The notes below the pieces were generated by a model that saw only the letters and a program-made list of their open reading frames with translations, made no database searches and was not told the origin of the DNA. From contig JASHRV010000412.1 in NCBI GenBank assembly GCA_030037175.1, positions 1-40,705 on the forward strand: a DNA stretch of 40,705 nt, read 5' to 3'. The stretch comes from Acetobacteraceae bacterium (lineage in GTDB: Bacteria; Pseudomonadota; Alphaproteobacteria; Acetobacterales; Acetobacteraceae). The position numbers and the translations under genes were made by a program. Shown one piece after another: positions 10,870-22,694 of this stretch; the first letter of the stretch is position 1, and every line of letters starts with the position of its first letter.

Positions 10870-11127
10870 ATGAAGATCTTCCTTGGTGCGGCGCTGGCAG
10901 CGCTTGTACTTTCGGCCCCGGTGCTCGCGACCGCTGCGACGATGGGGAGTGCCTCGAACCAGCCGACGATGGTCGCGGCAAACGATAGTGGCGCCTCACA
11001 TCCGTACGCAGTGCTGGACTACCAGGACGGGACGCATCTGATGCCGACCGCCCCGGTGAGCCGGAATGCCCAGATCCCGTACGACCATACAATGGTGCTG
11101 GTCAACAGGACCGGTGGGGAGCGCTGA
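10870..11127 (+). CDS. Small secreted protein (85 aa), paralogue of 17456..17710
   Basis: Signal peptide MKIFLGAALAALVLSAPVLATA; HPYAVLDYQDGTHLMPTAPV...LVNRTGGER. AAAAGGAG upstream. Conserved with the second copy. Confidence 0.8.
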   Translation: MKIFLGAALAALVLSAPVLATAATMGSASNQPTMVAANDSGASHPYAVLDYQDGTHLMPTAPVSRNAQIPYDHTMVLVNRTGGER

Positions 11128-11184
11128 AATTCCGCGGCCCGGATTGCAAATCCGCGCTGATCGCCGCTTCGTGGCGAAGGGACG

Positions 11185-11230
11185 GGGTGCGGACAACGGT
11201 CTGCGCCCCGACCCGTGTACGGGGTTTTGT
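11185..11230 (+). terminator. Terminator-like hairpins after the small secreted protein gene
   Basis: GGGGTGCGGA-CAACGG-TCTGCGCCCC (G-U pairs in RNA), then CCCGT-GT-ACGGG followed by GTTTTG. Confidence 0.4.
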
Positions 11231-11239
11231 GGGCTGAGG

Positions 11240-12106
11240 CTATTCGATGTCGCCTCGCGACAGAAGCCGTTCGCCATAGGCGAGGACCGCGTCGCCGAGC
11301 TGACGTGCCGGGGGGCGGAGGCTGCGGCCCGCGGCGCGGAGGACGAATTCCACCTCGCCGAGGTTGGGCAGCCTCGTGGCGGACAGCTCCTCCAGCCCAT
11401 GTGGGATTAGACCACGGGCGACGGCCAGCACGCCGAGACCAGCCAGTGCCGCAGCGCGCAGCCCGGTCAGGCTGCCGCTGGTGCAGGCCACCCGCCAAGG
11501 CTGCGACGCCTGCTCGAGCGACTGCAGCACGCGCATGCGTGTGATGCTGGGCGGAGGGTAAAGGATCAGCGGCAGTGGCTGGCGCGGGTCAAGCTCGGCA
11601 CCGGGCGCGCCGACCCAGACCAGCCGATCGCGCCAGACGAGACGTCCGCGTTCGTCACCTTCCGGGCGCTTGGCCAGCACCAAATCAACTTCGCCTTCCT
11701 CGAGCCTTGCATTGAGCCAGCCGCTGAGGCCGACGGTGAGCTCCAGATCCACGAGCGGGTGGAGGCGTGTAAAAGCGCGGAGTACTTCGGGCAGCCGGGA
11801 GAAGACAAAATCCTCGGAAGTGCCGAAGCGCAGCCGGCCCCGCAACTGCGCGCCCGCGAAATAGCGCTCAGCGCGGTCGTTTGCCGCGAGGATGTTTTCA
11901 GCGAACGCGGTCATGGCTTCGCCGTCCGGGGTCATTCGGACCGAATGGGTATCGCGCACGAAAAGGCGCCGGCCGAGATGCCGCTCGAGGCGGCGGATGT
12001 GCTGGCTGACCGCGGGTTGGCCGAGCCGGAGGCTGCGTGCGGCCTGGCTGAAACTGCGGCTCTGTGCGACCGCGAGGAAGCTCTTGAGTAGCAAAGGATC
12101 GAGCAT
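11240..12106 (-). CDS. LysR family transcriptional regulator
   Basis: MLDPLLLKSFLAVAQSRSFSQAARSLRLGQPAVSQHIRRLERHLGRRLFVRDTHSVRMTPDGEAM: LysR HTH. The N-terminal extension up to 12268 is rejected. Confidence 0.92.
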   Translation of the reverse strand: MLDPLLLKSFLAVAQSRSFSQAARSLRLGQPAVSQHIRRLERHLGRRLFVRDTHSVRMTPDGEAMTAFAENILAANDRAERYFAGAQLRGRLRFGTSEDFVFSRLPEVLRAFTRLHPLVDLELTVGLSGWLNARLEEGEVDLVLAKRPEGDERGRLVWRDRLVWVGAPGAELDPRQPLPLILYPPPSITRMRVLQSLEQASQPWRVACTSGSLTGLRAAALAGLGVLAVARGLIPHGLEELSATRLPNLGEVEFVLRAAGRSLRPPARQLGDAVLAYGERLLSRGDIE

Positions 12107-12114
12107 CGGGCTGC

Positions 12115-12133
12115 TTATCACGAACCGAGATAA
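12115..12133. promoter_or_regulatory. Candidate LysR operator TTATC-N9-GATAA (contains ATC-N9-GAT)
   Basis: Perfect inverted repeat in the LysR / BASS-transporter divergent intergenic region; also fits T-N11-A. Confidence 0.5.
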
Positions 12134-12207
12134 CAATAAGTGAAGGCGGATGCGTTCACAAGCGCCCGGCCTGCGCCCAAACCAGATGGCGAAGGCTAGA
12201 AGGGTGA

Positions 12208-13284
12208 GTGAGGTGCCGCATGTCCGTTCGCAACCCGTTCGTGAGCCGCGTGCTCCGCCGGATGCCACTCGATCCCTACCTGGTCGCGATCGTCTCGATG
12301 GCTGCGTTGGCTTCTCTCTTTCCTTGCCGCGGCGAGGTCGCCACCGGTTTCGACCGCGGCACCATGGTGGTCATCGGGCTGCTGTTCTTTCTTTATGGCG
12401 CGCGACTCTCCCGTCAGGCGGCGTGGGAAGGGCTGTCGCACTGGCGCCTGCAGGGGCTGATTCTGGCAAGCACCTTCGGGGTGTCTCCGCTGTTCGGACT
12501 CGCTGCGCACGCGCTGGTGCCGCGCATCCTTTCGCCCAGCCTCTATCCCGGTGTGCTCTTTCTCACCATGCTGCCTTCGACGGTGCAGTCCTCTATCGCT
12601 TTCACCTCGATCGCGCGCGGCAACGTTGCGGGAGCCGTCTGTGCTGCCTCAGCATCCAGTCTGGTCGGCATTTTCGCCACGCCACTGCTGGTAGGGATGC
12701 TGATGGGCGCGCAGGGGGGCATTTCCGTGCACAGTATCGAGGGAATCCTGCTCCAGCTGCTGGCGCCGTTCATCGCCGGCCAGATTGCCCGGCGATGGAT
12801 CGGGGAATGGCTCAGCCGGCATAAATGGGTCACCGGAATGGTCGATCGCGGCTCGATCCTGCTGATCGTCTATACCGCGTTCAGCGAAGGCGTCGTGGAC
12901 GGTATCTGGCATCGCCTCGACCTCCTCAGCCTTGGAAGCGTGGTAATGGTCAATATCCTTTTGCTGGGCGCGGTTCTGGTGACGACGACATGTCTCAGCC
13001 GAAGCCTGGGCTTCTCGCGAGAGGATGAGATCGCGATTGTCTTCTGCGGCTCAAAGAAGAGCCTCGCCAGCGGTATCCCGATGATCAACGTGCTATTTCC
13101 GGCGCCGATGGTCGGGTTGATGGTGCTGCCGTTGATCTTCTTCCATCAGATCCAGCTCATGGTCTGTGCCATGCTGGCGCGGCGCTATGCCCGATGCGGG
13201 GAGTTGTGCGGTGTCCGCCCTGCCGGCTTTGCCGAGGCGAGAAAGACGGCATCCGCCGCGAAGAAACTCGAGCCCGTGCCGTGA
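12208..13284 (+). CDS. Bile acid:sodium symporter (BASS)/YfeH-like family transporter
   Basis: DRGTMVVIGLLFFLYGARLSRQAAWEGLSHWRLQGLILASTFGVSPLFG, VLFLTMLPSTVQSSIAFTSIARGNVAGAVCAASAS. Start could instead be ATG at 12220. Confidence 0.85.
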   Translation: MRCRMSVRNPFVSRVLRRMPLDPYLVAIVSMAALASLFPCRGEVATGFDRGTMVVIGLLFFLYGARLSRQAAWEGLSHWRLQGLILASTFGVSPLFGLAAHALVPRILSPSLYPGVLFLTMLPSTVQSSIAFTSIARGNVAGAVCAASASSLVGIFATPLLVGMLMGAQGGISVHSIEGILLQLLAPFIAGQIARRWIGEWLSRHKWVTGMVDRGSILLIVYTAFSEGVVDGIWHRLDLLSLGSVVMVNILLLGAVLVTTTCLSRSLGFSREDEIAIVFCGSKKSLASGIPMINVLFPAPMVGLMVLPLIFFHQIQLMVCAMLARRYARCGELCGVRPAGFAEARKTASAAKKLEPVP

Positions 13285-13312
13285 TTCTTTTGTCTGCGAT
13301 TCTTTTGTCTGC
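13283..13312 (+). repeat. Perfect 2 x 15-bp tandem repeat (GATTCTTTTGTCTGC)
   Basis: Two exact adjacent copies beginning inside the transporter stop codon. Confidence 0.85.
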
Positions 13313-13370
13313 TCCGGGACCATTCGGAACGCGTATCGGCTGCTGTGAAAAGTTAATTTGCGGCCTTTGC

Positions 13371-13400
13371 TGGTGGACCAAATCTCTCTGGTAAGACCAG
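13371..13400. promoter_or_regulatory. Tandem GntR/FadR-like operator candidates upstream of the oxalate decarboxylase
   Basis: TGGT-GG-ACCA (13371-13380) and CTGGT-AAG-ACCAG (13388-13400). The second fits the FadR-subfamily consensus TNGTNNNACNA; 22 bp before the ATG. Confidence 0.55.
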
Positions 13401-13422
13401 CACGGGAGAAAAGGGTAAGATC

Positions 13423-14667
13423 ATGGATCCGCTTTCTCGTCGCAATATGCTTGTGCTCAGCGCGGCAGGAGCCACGGCGGCGGCAACGACCGCGCACGCG
13501 GCGAGCTATGGCAACCCTGATGAGCCGGCTCAGGGTGCGATCAATGCTAGTACTGGAGCCCGGCGCGATCCGGGACCGCAGAACTCCATGTTGGTCTCGG
13601 AATTTCCCGATGCGTTCAGTCCGCCACCAACCGATGTCGGCGGCATGGCGCAGATCTGGTCCTCGTTCAACAATGCGCCGAGACGCATCCAGGCTGGAGG
13701 CTGGGCGCGCCAGGTGACGGAGGCCGATTTCCCCATGTCCGAAGCCGTTTCCGGCGTCAATATGCGGCTTTCTGCGGGTGGGATTCGCGAGCTGCATTGG
13801 CACCAAGCAGCGGAGTGGGGCTTCATGACCTATGGCGGATGCCGGGTGACCGTGCTGGACGAAAAAGGGCGGGCCTATGTGCAGGATATCGGGGTGGGAG
13901 ACCTTTGGTATTTTCCGGCCGGTTTCCCGCACTCTCTGCAAGGCCTCGGGCCGGATGGATGCGAGTTTCTGCTCATCTTCGACAACGGCCGCGCCAGCGA
14001 GTTCAACACACTGCTGGTGACAGACTGGTTTGCCCATACGCCGCCCGAGGTTCTCGCCCTCAATTTCGGCATGCCAAGCGACGCATTCAGAGCGATTCCT
14101 CCGCACGATCTCTGGATCTTTCAGGGAAAGAGTCCAGGGCCACTTCCCGCCGCTCAGGCGGCCGTGGATTCCGGCGGTGTGCCGCCGCACCCCTTCACCT
14201 TTTCGCTCGGCGGCATGACGCCACGGCGCAGCAACCGGAGCGGTAACGTGCGAATCGCCGACAGCACGGTGTTCAAGGTGTCGAAGAGTATCGCGGCGGC
14301 GTTGGAAACGATAAGGCCGGGCGGCATCAGGGAGATGCACTGGCATCCGAACGCCGATGAATGGCAGTACTACGTCAAGGGGCAGGGCCGCATGACGGTC
14401 TTCAATGCAGGGCCTCAGGCGCAGACAATGGATTTCCGCCCTGGCGATATCGGCGTCGTCAAGCGCAACTATGGTCACTATCTCCAGAACACCGGGACGA
14501 GCGATCTCGTGATGGTGGCTGTGTTCAAGACCGACCAATATGCCGAGATCTCGCTTTCGGACTGGCTGACGCACACGCCTCCGGAAATGGTGGCGCAGAC
14601 GCTGAACATCGACCCGGCGTTGGTGCGGCGGTTCCCAAGCGATTCGCCGGGATTCCTCCCGACATGA
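13423..14667 (+). CDS. Bicupin oxalate decarboxylase family protein with Tat-like signal
   Basis: Signal SRRNMLVLSAAGATAAATTAHA; cupin 1 GGIRELHWHQAAEWGFMTYG...PAGFPHS; cupin 2 PGGIREMHWHPNADEWQYYVKG...RNYGHYLQNTG; LLVTDWFAHTPPEVLALNFG as in OxdC. Confidence 0.88.
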   Translation: MDPLSRRNMLVLSAAGATAAATTAHAASYGNPDEPAQGAINASTGARRDPGPQNSMLVSEFPDAFSPPPTDVGGMAQIWSSFNNAPRRIQAGGWARQVTEADFPMSEAVSGVNMRLSAGGIRELHWHQAAEWGFMTYGGCRVTVLDEKGRAYVQDIGVGDLWYFPAGFPHSLQGLGPDGCEFLLIFDNGRASEFNTLLVTDWFAHTPPEVLALNFGMPSDAFRAIPPHDLWIFQGKSPGPLPAAQAAVDSGGVPPHPFTFSLGGMTPRRSNRSGNVRIADSTVFKVSKSIAAALETIRPGGIREMHWHPNADEWQYYVKGQGRMTVFNAGPQAQTMDFRPGDIGVVKRNYGHYLQNTGTSDLVMVAVFKTDQYAEISLSDWLTHTPPEMVAQTLNIDPALVRRFPSDSPGFLPT

Positions 14668-17015
14668 CCGGCGGCGAGGCGCGGGCAGGAAGCCCAGGCG
14701 ATAGGCCGGACGACGCGATGCGCTTTGCGTCCTACGCCGCTCCGGCAGGCGGTTGGGGTGCGGCGCGGGCGACGACGAAGGCATTGCGTGAGCAGCTGAT
14801 CGCGCTCAAGGGCTCGAAGGCGTTGCTGTCAATGAATCAGCCGGGTGGTTTCGACTGTCCCGGCTGTGCGTGGCCGGAACCGCGGCCGACTCACAAGCTC
14901 GAGTTTTGCGAGAACGGCGCCAAGGCGTTGGCTTTCGAGCTGACGAGGCGGCGCGTATCCCGCGAATTCTTTGCGACCCACACCGTCCGCGAGCTGGAGC
15001 GGGGGAGTGATTACTGGCTTGAGGAGCAGGGACGGTTAACCGAGCCGATGCGCTACGATCGCGCGAGCGACCGCTATGTGCCGATTGGCTGGGATGAAGC
15101 CTTCGCGCTGATCGGCCGGGAGCTGAGCACGCTGGCTGACCCCAATGAGGCCGAATTCTATACTTCGGGGCGCACCTCGAACGAGGCGGCGTTTCTCTAC
15201 CAGCTTCTCGCCCGACGCTTGGGGACGAACAATTTTCCCGACTGCTCCAACATGTGTCATGAGCCGACCAGCATCGGCCTCCCCGAAAGCATCGGCATCG
15301 GCAAGGGGACCGTGGTGCTGGAGGATTTTACCCATACGGACGCGGTCTTTATCATCGGCCAGAATCCGGGCACCAACAGCCCGCGGATGATGACCGATCT
15401 CCGTACCCTCTCCCGTCGCGGCGTGCCGATTGTGGTGTTCAATCCGCTGCGCGAACGCGCGCTCGAGCGCTTCACTGCGCCGCAGGATCCGGTCGAGATG
15501 GCGACGTTCGGTGAGACGAGGATTGCGAGCGAATATTGCCAGGTGCGGATCGGCGGCGACGTTGCGGCGCTCAAGGGCGTGATGAAGCGTGTGCTGGAGC
15601 GGCACGACGAGGCGGTTCATGGCGGCCAGGAACCGGTGCTCGACCTCGCCTTCATCGCCGAGCACACGCACGGTTTCGACGCTTTCGCCGAAGATCTCCG
15701 CGCCATCGGCTGGGACGAGATCGTCAACGCCTCCGGGCTGACACGAGAGCAGATCGCACGGGTGGCCGAGATCTATCTCCGGGCGCGGGCAGTGATCGCC
15801 TGCTACGGCATGGGCATCACCCAGCACCGGTGCGGCACGGCGAATGTCCAGCAAATCGTGAACCTTCTGCTTCTGCGCGGCAATATCGGCCGGCAAGGCG
15901 CGGGGATATGTCCGGTTCGCGGGCACTCGAACGTGCAGGGTGACCGCACAGTGGGCATCGATGAGAGGCCGAAGTCTGAGTTCCTCGACCGACTCGGCGC
16001 GGTGTTCGAATTCGCGCCGCCGCGGGCGCGCGGGCACAATGTCGTGGACGCGGTCAAGGCGATGGAGGAGGGGCGCGCGAAAGTCTTCATCGGCCTCGGC
16101 GGCAACTTCATCCGGGCAGTGCCGGATTGGACCACGGCCGAAGCGGCGATGCGGCGGATGCGTCTCACGGTCGGGATCAGCACGAAGCTCAACCGGGGGC
16201 ACCTCATTCACGGCGAAGAGGCATTGATTCTTCCCTGCCTCGCCAGAAGCGATATCGATATCCAAGCGGGCGGGCGGCAGTCGATCACCGTGGAGGACAG
16301 CATGTCGATGGTCCATGCATCCACCGGACTCGCGCTGCCACCGAGCGCGGCGCTGAGATCGGAGGTTGCCATCGTCGCGGGAATGGCGCGGGCGACGCTG
16401 CCGAATTGCGGGATCGACTGGGATTTCTTCGTTGCGGATTACGATCGGATCCGCGACAAGATCGAAGCGGTATTCCCACACCTCTTCGCACGGTTCAACG
16501 ATCGGATCCGCGAGCCGGGAGGCTTTCACCTGTCCAATCCGCCGCGCGAGCGGGTGTGGAACACGCGGACGGGGCGTGCCAATTTCCTGATTTTTCCGGG
16601 TGTGGAGGAGGATCCTGAGATCGCGGCACATCCGGACGTGCTCCGGCTGGCGACGCTCAGGAGCCATGATCAGTACAACACAACGATCTATGGCCTCGAC
16701 GACCGCTATCGCGGGGTGTTCGGTGGTCGGATGGTGGTGTTCATGAACGAGACGGACATGATGGCGCGAGGCATCGCAGCCGGCGATCGGGTGGAGATGG
16801 AATCGCTTTCCGGCGATGGAAAGAAACGCATCGTGCGTGGTTTCCGGGCCAAGCCTCACAACATCCCGGAGGGCTCGGTCGGCGCCTATTATCCCGAGAC
16901 AAACCCGCTCTTGGCACTCTCTCATCATGACCCAGAGAGCGGAACACCTGCTGCGAAATCGATTCCAGTTCTGGTTCGCCTGCAAGAGGGAACAGGCGAT
17001 ACCACACCACAATGA
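14664..17015 (+). CDS. YdeP/FdhF-type molybdopterin oxidoreductase (formate dehydrogenase alpha-like)
   Basis: GGFDCPGCAWPEP, TSGRTSNEAAFLYQLLARRLGTNNFPDCSNMCHEPTSIGLPESIGIGKGTVVLEDF, LLLRGNIGRQGAGICPVRGHSNVQGDRTVGI. ATGA overlap with the cupin gene stop; the track ORF start at 14361 is an over-extension. Confidence 0.88.
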   Translation: MTGGEARAGSPGDRPDDAMRFASYAAPAGGWGAARATTKALREQLIALKGSKALLSMNQPGGFDCPGCAWPEPRPTHKLEFCENGAKALAFELTRRRVSREFFATHTVRELERGSDYWLEEQGRLTEPMRYDRASDRYVPIGWDEAFALIGRELSTLADPNEAEFYTSGRTSNEAAFLYQLLARRLGTNNFPDCSNMCHEPTSIGLPESIGIGKGTVVLEDFTHTDAVFIIGQNPGTNSPRMMTDLRTLSRRGVPIVVFNPLRERALERFTAPQDPVEMATFGETRIASEYCQVRIGGDVAALKGVMKRVLERHDEAVHGGQEPVLDLAFIAEHTHGFDAFAEDLRAIGWDEIVNASGLTREQIARVAEIYLRARAVIACYGMGITQHRCGTANVQQIVNLLLLRGNIGRQGAGICPVRGHSNVQGDRTVGIDERPKSEFLDRLGAVFEFAPPRARGHNVVDAVKAMEEGRAKVFIGLGGNFIRAVPDWTTAEAAMRRMRLTVGISTKLNRGHLIHGEEALILPCLARSDIDIQAGGRQSITVEDSMSMVHASTGLALPPSAALRSEVAIVAGMARATLPNCGIDWDFFVADYDRIRDKIEAVFPHLFARFNDRIREPGGFHLSNPPRERVWNTRTGRANFLIFPGVEEDPEIAAHPDVLRLATLRSHDQYNTTIYGLDDRYRGVFGGRMVVFMNETDMMARGIAAGDRVEMESLSGDGKKRIVRGFRAKPHNIPEGSVGAYYPETNPLLALSHHDPESGTPAAKSIPVLVRLQEGTGDTTPQ

Positions 17016-17324
17016 TTTGCCAGGGCAGCAATTGGGCTTGATGGCAGGGTTGCACCGCTCACGAGACGGCGATTTCGGGCGGCATAAGTCGAGCATCGAG
17101 ACAAGGACCACGTTGCGGGAATTGTCTGAAAAGTTGCACGGATGCAATCCGTTACGATCCAGAGGTCGGGTTCAGCTATACCAAAGAGAATCCGAGCGGG
17201 CCGGCTGAATCATCCGAGTTCAAGGGGTGAGGGTGGCTGGTCGGGCCGATAGCCGATGAAGCGGTGGAGGCCCTCCATGGCGGGCTGTTACGTTATGCAA
17301 TAAATACGTGGCTGGCCCAATTTC

Positions 17325-17339
17325 ATGCATTTGCTGCAT
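17325..17339. promoter_or_regulatory. Palindrome ATGCA-TTTGC-TGCAT upstream of the second small secreted protein gene
   Basis: Same arm sequence and spacer length as 10728-10742; extended to CATGCA...TGCATG. Confidence 0.5.
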
Positions 17340-17455
17340 GTGCGAATGGCGTCAATGACGGATGGCGCAGCGGCGCGGGCGGGCCAACTGTCACCATTAG
17401 CGGGCCATGGAACGGTGTCGTGAAAGGGCCCGCCAATAAATGACATGGAGTATGT

Positions 17456-17710
17456 GTGATGAAGACTTTCTTTGGTGTGGCGCTCTCCGCGCTGGTGCTC
17501 ATGGCTCCCGCTCTTTGCGAGGCTCAGAACGCGTCGCAGGCGGCGTTGTATGCGTCCAGCTACAATAGCCAGCATCCGTACGCGGCGCTCGACAATCAGG
17601 ACGGCATCCACCTGCAACCGGCTTCTCCGGTGGCCCATCACGCGAACCCTGCGGAAGCGCCGATCGACAGCTCGGCAGCGCTGGTGAACCAGACGGGCGG
17701 CAACCGCTGA
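17456..17710 (+). CDS. Small secreted protein (84 aa), paralogue of 10870..11127
   Basis: Signal MKTFFGVALSALVLMAPALCEA; HPYAALDNQDGIHLQPASPV...LVNQTGGNR. Start may be ATG at 17459. Confidence 0.8.
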   Translation: MMKTFFGVALSALVLMAPALCEAQNASQAALYASSYNSQHPYAALDNQDGIHLQPASPVAHHANPAEAPIDSSAALVNQTGGNR

Positions 17711-18996: not shown

Positions 18997-19791
18997 ATGA
19001 TGCTCATCGGCGGCTTGTCCCAAGCGGGACCATCGATGTTGGCGGCGTTCTTCGCCTCGTTGGTCGAGGGGGTCGAGGCACTGACGATTGTCCTGGCGGT
19101 GGGAAGCACGCGTGGCTGGCGCGGTGCGCTCGGCGGCAGCTTCGCGGCCCTCGTGACCCTTCTGGTAATCGTCGCGATTCTGGGCCGGGCGCTCACGCTG
19201 ATCCCGCTCGATGTCATCCAGGCCGGCATCGGTGTCCTGCTCCTGCTGTTCGGCCTGCGCTGGCTGCGCAAGGCGATTCTGCGCGCAGCAGGGTCCATCC
19301 CCTTGCGCGAAGAAAATGAAGTCTTCGTCCGGCAGACGAACACACTTCGCCGCCCCGGCAGGGCTGGCTCCGGCGATGATGGTCCCTGGGGGGACCGGCT
19401 CGGCTTTGCCACCAGCTTTCAGGCGACAATGCTTGAGGGGATCGAGGTGGTATTCATCGTCGTCGCCATTGGTGCGGGAAAGAGCGGTCTACTGCTGCCG
19501 GCGGGCCTCGGGGCGGTTGCTGCACTTCTTGCCGTTATCGTCCTCGGAATAGCCGTCCGTCGCCCGCTCTCAGCTGTGCCTGAAAATACGCTCAAGTTCG
19601 TGGTCGGCTGCCTCTTATCTGCCTTCGGCACGTTCTGGGTCGGCGAGGGGATCGGGGTTCGCTGGCCGGGCGCGGACTGGGCGATGATAGGCCTTATCGT
19701 CGGCTTTCTGGCGGTTGCGTCGGTATCGGTGCGGTTCTGTCGCGAGCGGGCGCGGTCGGTGCTACGCGAAAGCGGGGATGTGTTGTCGTGA
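18997..19791 (+). CDS. COG4280-type predicted membrane protein
   Basis: FFASLVEGVEALTIVLAVGSTRGWRGALGGSFAALVTLLVIVAILG...LLLLFGLRWLRKAILRAAGSIPL...FQATMLEGIEVVFIVVAIGA. Confidence 0.72.
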   Translation: MMLIGGLSQAGPSMLAAFFASLVEGVEALTIVLAVGSTRGWRGALGGSFAALVTLLVIVAILGRALTLIPLDVIQAGIGVLLLLFGLRWLRKAILRAAGSIPLREENEVFVRQTNTLRRPGRAGSGDDGPWGDRLGFATSFQATMLEGIEVVFIVVAIGAGKSGLLLPAGLGAVAALLAVIVLGIAVRRPLSAVPENTLKFVVGCLLSAFGTFWVGEGIGVRWPGADWAMIGLIVGFLAVASVSVRFCRERARSVLRESGDVLS

Positions 19792-22340: not shown

Positions 22341-22694
22341 TCAAAGGAACGGTGCGAATGCCTTTTCGACAGCGCCCGGATATTGCTCGCGAAGCGCGAG
22401 CCTGCCGACGGGAAGGCGAAGCGCGCGGATCTCTGGCAACGATGCAAGGGCCTTCTTCTTCTCCGCGGCGTGCCCTCCGAGGACCGCGGCATGTGGACGG
22501 AAGACGATCTCGACCAGCAGATGGGCGAGGAACGCGGCATAGGTCGCAGGTTGCCGGGCCTGGCGCAGGCGCGATTTCGTGCCGAAGCCAGGCAAATCCA
22601 TGGAGATGGTGGCGAAACAGCGGGAGACGCGCTGTTGCAAAGAATACCTCTCGCCGCGCGTCGAGATCGAACTCATCGCCGGCAGAAGAGACAC
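22341..22694 (-). CDS. Hypothetical protein (up to 117 aa)
   Basis: ORF upstream of the FDH homologue on the same strand; segment ATYAAFLAHLLVEIVFRPHAAVLGGHAAEKKKALASLPEIRALRLPVGRLALREQYPGAVEKAFAPFL looks coding. No family recognised. Confidence 0.35.
   Translation of the reverse strand: MSLLPAMSSISTRGERYSLQQRVSRCFATISMDLPGFGTKSRLRQARQPATYAAFLAHLLVEIVFRPHAAVLGGHAAEKKKALASLPEIRALRLPVGRLALREQYPGAVEKAFAPFL

Follow-up and report, generated by a model that had tools for sequence, protein, structure and literature searches.

We identified a family of small proteins with export-type signals that has been found so far in a single genus among the Acetobacteraceae genomes sampled (398, a sample and not all genomes of that bacterial family). 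Its members are dispersed over the genome, and they are recognised by a signature at the very end of the protein, approximately D-S-T-x-x-L-V-N-x-T-G-G-x-x-stop. We tentatively propose, with a probability of roughly 0.4, that they are partly co-regulated exported proteins, probably disordered, whose tail docks on a common partner in the cell envelope. The window, that is, the whole stretch of 40,705 nucleotides analysed here, encodes two of them, P1 and P2. It is contig C135 of genome G000, whose draft assembly comprises 429 contigs (4.43 Mb) and is 87% complete, and it was compared with four genomes of the same genus (G001, G002, G003 and G004); the assemblies are draft and MAG-type, and G003 is 77% complete.

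Small proteins with a conserved C-terminal tail

P1 and P2 (Table 1) are homologous. A single BLASTP comparison gave 40 identical residues out of 88 (45%, E = 5e-23), and tblastn within their own genome gave 50% identity (E = 1.2e-15). As read from the sequence, both begin with methionine and lysine followed by a long hydrophobic stretch, and a pattern scan revealed no lipobox in either. For P2 the ATG is the better start (MKTFFGV...), the GTG adding only one residue; a GGAG lies a few bases upstream of the ATG. Because a strong terminator-like hairpin follows its stop codon, P2 is probably a one-gene transcript.

Table 1. Positions in the window of P1, P2 and the elements associated with them
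Feature	Position	Strand	Remarks
Dyad ATGCA-ATGTG-TGCAT upstream of P1	10728..10742	+	Candidate regulator site; starts 142 bp before ATG
P1, family member, 85 aa	10870..11127	+	Signal sequence, variable middle, tail DHTMVLVNRTGGER-stop
P1 C-terminal tail codons and stop	11083..11127	+	Family-wide signature
Dyad ATGCA-TTTGC-TGCAT upstream of P2	17325..17339	+	Candidate regulator site; starts 134 bp before ATG
P2, family member, 83 aa (84 aa from GTG 17456)	17459..17710	+	Signal sequence, variable middle, tail DSSAALVNQTGGNR-stop
P2 C-terminal tail codons and stop	17666..17710	+	Family-wide signature
Terminator-like inverted repeat GCGAGGCGCG...CGCGCCTCGC, then T run, downstream of P2	17768..17809	+	Read from sequence

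No significant family match for P1 or P2 was found in Pfam, NCBIfam, PHROGs or PDB; the best weak matches, in the signal region or elsewhere, were CsgA (E = 0.02, far under the cut-off), a PDB match (0.17), a PHROGs match (0.014) and Pfam LPAM_1 (0.053). Viral and plasmid searches gave no match for the family, Rfam gave none in the window, and a literature search found no such family described. An earlier note on this DNA had thus been right that the two ORFs, at the coordinates and on the strand it gave, are homologous, carry signal sequences and belong to no recognised named family, and its idea of a duplicated small-protein family with export-type signals is supported, all 14 members now recognised having signal-like N-termini.

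The 14 members are 73–102 aa long. Hydropathy and A-x-A scans revealed in all of them a basic start followed by a hydrophobic stretch and in most an A-x-A site, as in a Sec-type export signal with its basic N-terminus, hydrophobic core and region of cleavage. A lipobox-like sequence was detected by pattern scan of the 14 in two G003 members only, C329 (LMGC) and C615 (LAGC). The middle region is variable, rich in A, G, S, P, T, N and Q, cannot be aligned between distant members and is probably disordered. AlphaFold2 predicted only the signal helix of P1 (mean pLDDT 49); this is compatible with disorder, weakly so given an alignment of three sequences.

Conservation is greatest at the C-terminus: mean pairwise identity is 0.52 over the last 14 residues, 0.39 over the first 14 and 0.11 between residues -40 and -15. 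Asparagine at -7 and glycine at -4 are invariant, leucine at -9, valine at -8 and threonine at -5 are nearly so, and three residues always follow the T-G. The same tail is present in soluble and lipobox-bearing members alike. The HPYA-LD-QDG-HL core singled out in the earlier note is indeed present in P1 and P2, and also in the C574 member of G003, but it is found only partly in others and is a feature of a subset, the best block family-wide being the last 14 or so residues. A tree built from the 14 short sequences left most branchings unresolved.

For three syntenic G000/G003 ortholog pairs dN/dS was about 0.44 (0.38/0.87; C94/C8), 0.46 (0.39/0.84; P2/C574) and 0.32 (0.46/1.42; C367/C463). 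Given that dN is below dS in these pairs and that ribosome-binding and upstream sequence is conserved among members, the genes appear to be genuine, fast-evolving coding sequences under moderate purifying selection; chance ORFs are ruled out by homology, synteny and dN/dS. The orthologous pair of G001 and G004 gave about 0.8, with few changes. This value and the divergent tails of the pair (LANQRGGGH and VANQRGGGH) indicate that the constraint on the tail residues is not absolute.

Distribution and genomic surroundings

The earlier note regarded P1 and P2 as a pair; G000 in fact carries at least seven members on six contigs (two on C135, and C27:41279+, C94:5850+, C328:15238+, C238:9018- and C367:3866+). 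Five were found in G003 (C574, which is the ortholog of P2 by synteny, C329, C8, C463 and C615), one each in G001 (C92) and G004 (C73), and none in G002; since the assemblies are incomplete, these counts are minimum values. The family HMM gave no convincing match in the 393 sampled genomes outside the genus. Weak matches (E from 8e-4 to 8e-3) occurred in G012, which on reading was not convincing as a member, and in G030, G326, G331 and G435, which were judged to be chance by their score and their partial coverage without the tail. At the DNA level, the pattern DxTxxL[VA]NxTGxxx-stop matched in G000 and G003 only, in the sampled genome collection. On contig C26 of G004 (L012 1438-1986; also L097), a sequence ending ...ADQTGGGR without a stop lies upstream of an EmrA-type gene and may be a decayed member; an EmrA neighbour is common to this possible copy and the intact C27 member of G000.

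The note had also linked the two proteins to the oxalate/formate genes that they bracket. In the window, the order is LysR (minus strand), BASS, oxalate decarboxylase (TIGR03404), FdhF/YdeP (TIGR01701), P2, RpoH, OFeT, hydrolase and LysR. In G003, it is LysR (minus strand) and BASS (contig C213, whose end overlaps C574), the small protein, a frame-broken OFeT-like gene, hydrolase and LysR; no oxalate decarboxylase, YdeP or RpoH gene lies beside the small gene, and no counterpart of P1 was found upstream of LysR. None of the four congeners yielded TIGR03404, the absence from G003 being less sure at 77% completeness, and three of them (G001, G003 and G004) still carry the small-protein family. 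Within G000, five other copies stand away from the block, and a second oxalate decarboxylase (C316) has no member next to it within the 4 kb that were read. That the proteins help an oxalate decarboxylase/YdeP-based acid or oxalate response, as two flanking copies in the window might suggest, is therefore given very little credence. Synteny revealed no recurrent pairing or association with oxalate genes, on which the note had made the linkage depend, and a paired duplication around these genes was rejected on comparative position. The bracketing is specific to G000, the G003 block and the other loci being different, so it appears to carry no functional weight, P1 and P2 being neighbours of the block by accident. 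A stress-response role of the family is possible.

The block itself offered further observations. The oxalate decarboxylase and FdhF/YdeP genes (13423-17015) overlap by 4 bases and are for this reason probably one operon, and the decarboxylase has an export-like N-terminus (SRRNML...). It has been speculated that formate breakdown by YdeP might sustain the oxalate-based acid resistance of E. coli (PMC4283999); a direct oxdC-ydeP operon would be a natural case on which to test this idea. Downstream, a 99-aa hydrolase ORF (22341-22640) is apparently what truncation has left of a 285-aa gene that is intact in G003, while the OFeT-like iron-permease gene is intact in the window (19000-19791) and frame-split, probably a pseudogene, in G003 C574 (L041 872-1410).

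The remaining members have other neighbours; the ORFs come from a simple script based on codon usage and not from a trained gene finder, and for some neighbours the identity was read from the sequence, not obtained by profile search. Flagellar genes and a glycosyltransferase-4 gene lie near C94, the latter shared by G003 C8. An ECF sigma factor gene (PhyR_sigma2/EcfG-like) and a putative zf-HC2 anti-sigma gene are directly upstream of C367 in G000 and C463 in G003 (L040 2301-4165, L044 990-2768). An EmrAB-type pump is encoded near C27 and a regulator-ATPase near C238. The G001/G004 member stands beside an Mla-like ABC operon, and an ECF sigma factor is encoded close by. At the counterpart locus only 15 bp separate the flanking genes in G002 and 39 bp in G003, and G000 has a different ORF, so that this copy was either gained there or lost elsewhere. 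In G004 C73 (L046 6191-10254), a segment of some 4 kb that encodes an ECF sigma factor and a beta-lactamase-fold protein as well as the family member lies between SDR and PqiC-like genes, which are 15–39 bp apart in G002 and G003. Sigma-factor genes thus occur near several members (C367/C463, the G001/G004 member and, with RpoH, P2). As regards a possible mobile-element origin, the regions that were compared showed no conservation of flanking DNA outside the upstream elements. These unrelated neighbourhoods would fit single-gene units acting in trans.

The upstream dyad and candidate regulation

A dyad, ATGCA-N5-YGCAT, precedes many of the genes. All 10 positions are matched upstream of P1, P2, C94, G003 C574, G004 C73 and G001 C92, and nine of 10 upstream of C27. 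At this threshold (at least nine of 10 positions) it was found for 7 of the 14 members versus none of 124 control genes, and in those seven it starts 119–142 bp before the start codon. It is absent upstream of the other seven, three of which (C367, with one change, C328 and G003 C463) have in common a different element around ACGCATRGAAGAA. The dyad is probably kept by selection, because the sequence around it has diverged in large part, and copying of genes together with their promoters may in part contribute to its being shared; the sites of G001 and G004 do not count as independent.

A genome-wide search revealed no clear wider regulon, since most of the non-family sites read fall inside genes. 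One dyad that lies downstream of a DedA-like gene, and is conserved between G001 and G004, has no family ORF after it. A perfect ATGCA-N5-TGCAT dyad was also found at L073 2840-2854 (G000 C81:6339-6353), 128 bp before a gene for an ABC-type substrate-binding protein; the distance is as in the small-protein family, and this gene is a possible further member of the regulon.

Possible roles of the family

According to the reading that we favour, a Sec signal peptide would direct each protein into the envelope or out of the cell, where the conserved tail would be the working part, binding a single partner shared by the members, be it an envelope protein, a protease or some component of the surface, and the variable middle would serve as a spacer or display region. 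A dimeric regulator binding the dyad would control many members together. Docking by the tail is proposed because the tail is the best conserved mature part and occurs in both soluble and lipobox-bearing forms.

The same architecture could be that of secreted precursors of peptide signals, in which a protease would free a C-terminal peptide (about LVNxTGGxR) after Sec export, to act as a quorum or contact signal, with the paralogs as its variants. The C-terminal peptides of Bacillus Phr proteins act as signals, and Phr precursors, like the present proteins, have a signal sequence, a variable pro-part and a conserved C-terminal peptide; moreover, the tails of the paralogs differ at few positions only. 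However, the family proteins are about twice as long as Phr, and the lipobox-bearing ones are hard to square with a free peptide. Phr genes normally adjoin rap genes, whereas no rap-like receptor gene was seen beside any copy examined (read by eye, partly with Pfam), and no receptor or protease gene recurred as a neighbour at the loci examined. We regard a peptide signal as unlikely. Were the tail a sorting or secretion signal of a general kind, borne by many exported cargos with P1 and P2 as small ones, this would account for the extreme C-terminal position and the fixed distance to the stop codon, as in PEP-CTERM and GlyGly-CTERM proteins, whose conserved motif also stands at the extreme C-terminus of exported proteins. 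But the pattern LVNxTGxxx-stop matched 11 genes in the five congeneric genomes (none in the reversed-pattern control), and 11 of 11 are small family members with no larger cargo among them; nor does the tail have the hydrophobic membrane segment, the basic cluster or the diverse cargo of those systems. Such a role seems highly improbable.

That the proteins are bacteriocin-like and take part in antagonism would agree with their being multi-copy, fast-evolving, lineage-specific and exported, and the C615 member of G003 comes immediately after a gene whose product has a Rap1a immunity-protein domain. This is, however, the only examined locus with such a neighbour. The mature parts have a net charge of -4 to +1 and almost all are cysteine-free, the N-termini are Sec-like rather than double-glycine leaders, and no peptidase-transporter was seen beside the copies; we consider this reading quite improbable. 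In being small, signal-bearing, fast-evolving, narrow in taxon, multi-copy and scattered, the family resembles orphan families of small exported proteins; it differs from those described in having a conserved C-terminal tail of its own and, in many members, an upstream dyad. Asr-type enterobacterial stress proteins are likewise small, exported, of low complexity and probably disordered. The differences are that the family has no Pfam or NCBIfam match and that acid induction is a trait known for Asr.

Returning to tail docking, a stronger form of it, which we consider doubtful, is that the common tail serves as a recognition tag of a new sort, extracellular or periplasmic, for which there would be one dedicated partner, the genus-specific, partly co-regulated paralogs being variants of one signal or envelope-coat module.

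In summary, a misleading link between these small proteins and oxalate/formate metabolism is removed. What stands in its place is an undescribed family of putatively exported proteins with a testable C-terminal recognition motif, together with a dyad that may be a regulator site, in a group of Acetobacteraceae that has been little studied. If the tail is a recognition tag, it would amount to a new, if small, principle of signalling or of how the envelope is organised; otherwise, the family would be an ordinary lineage-specific one.
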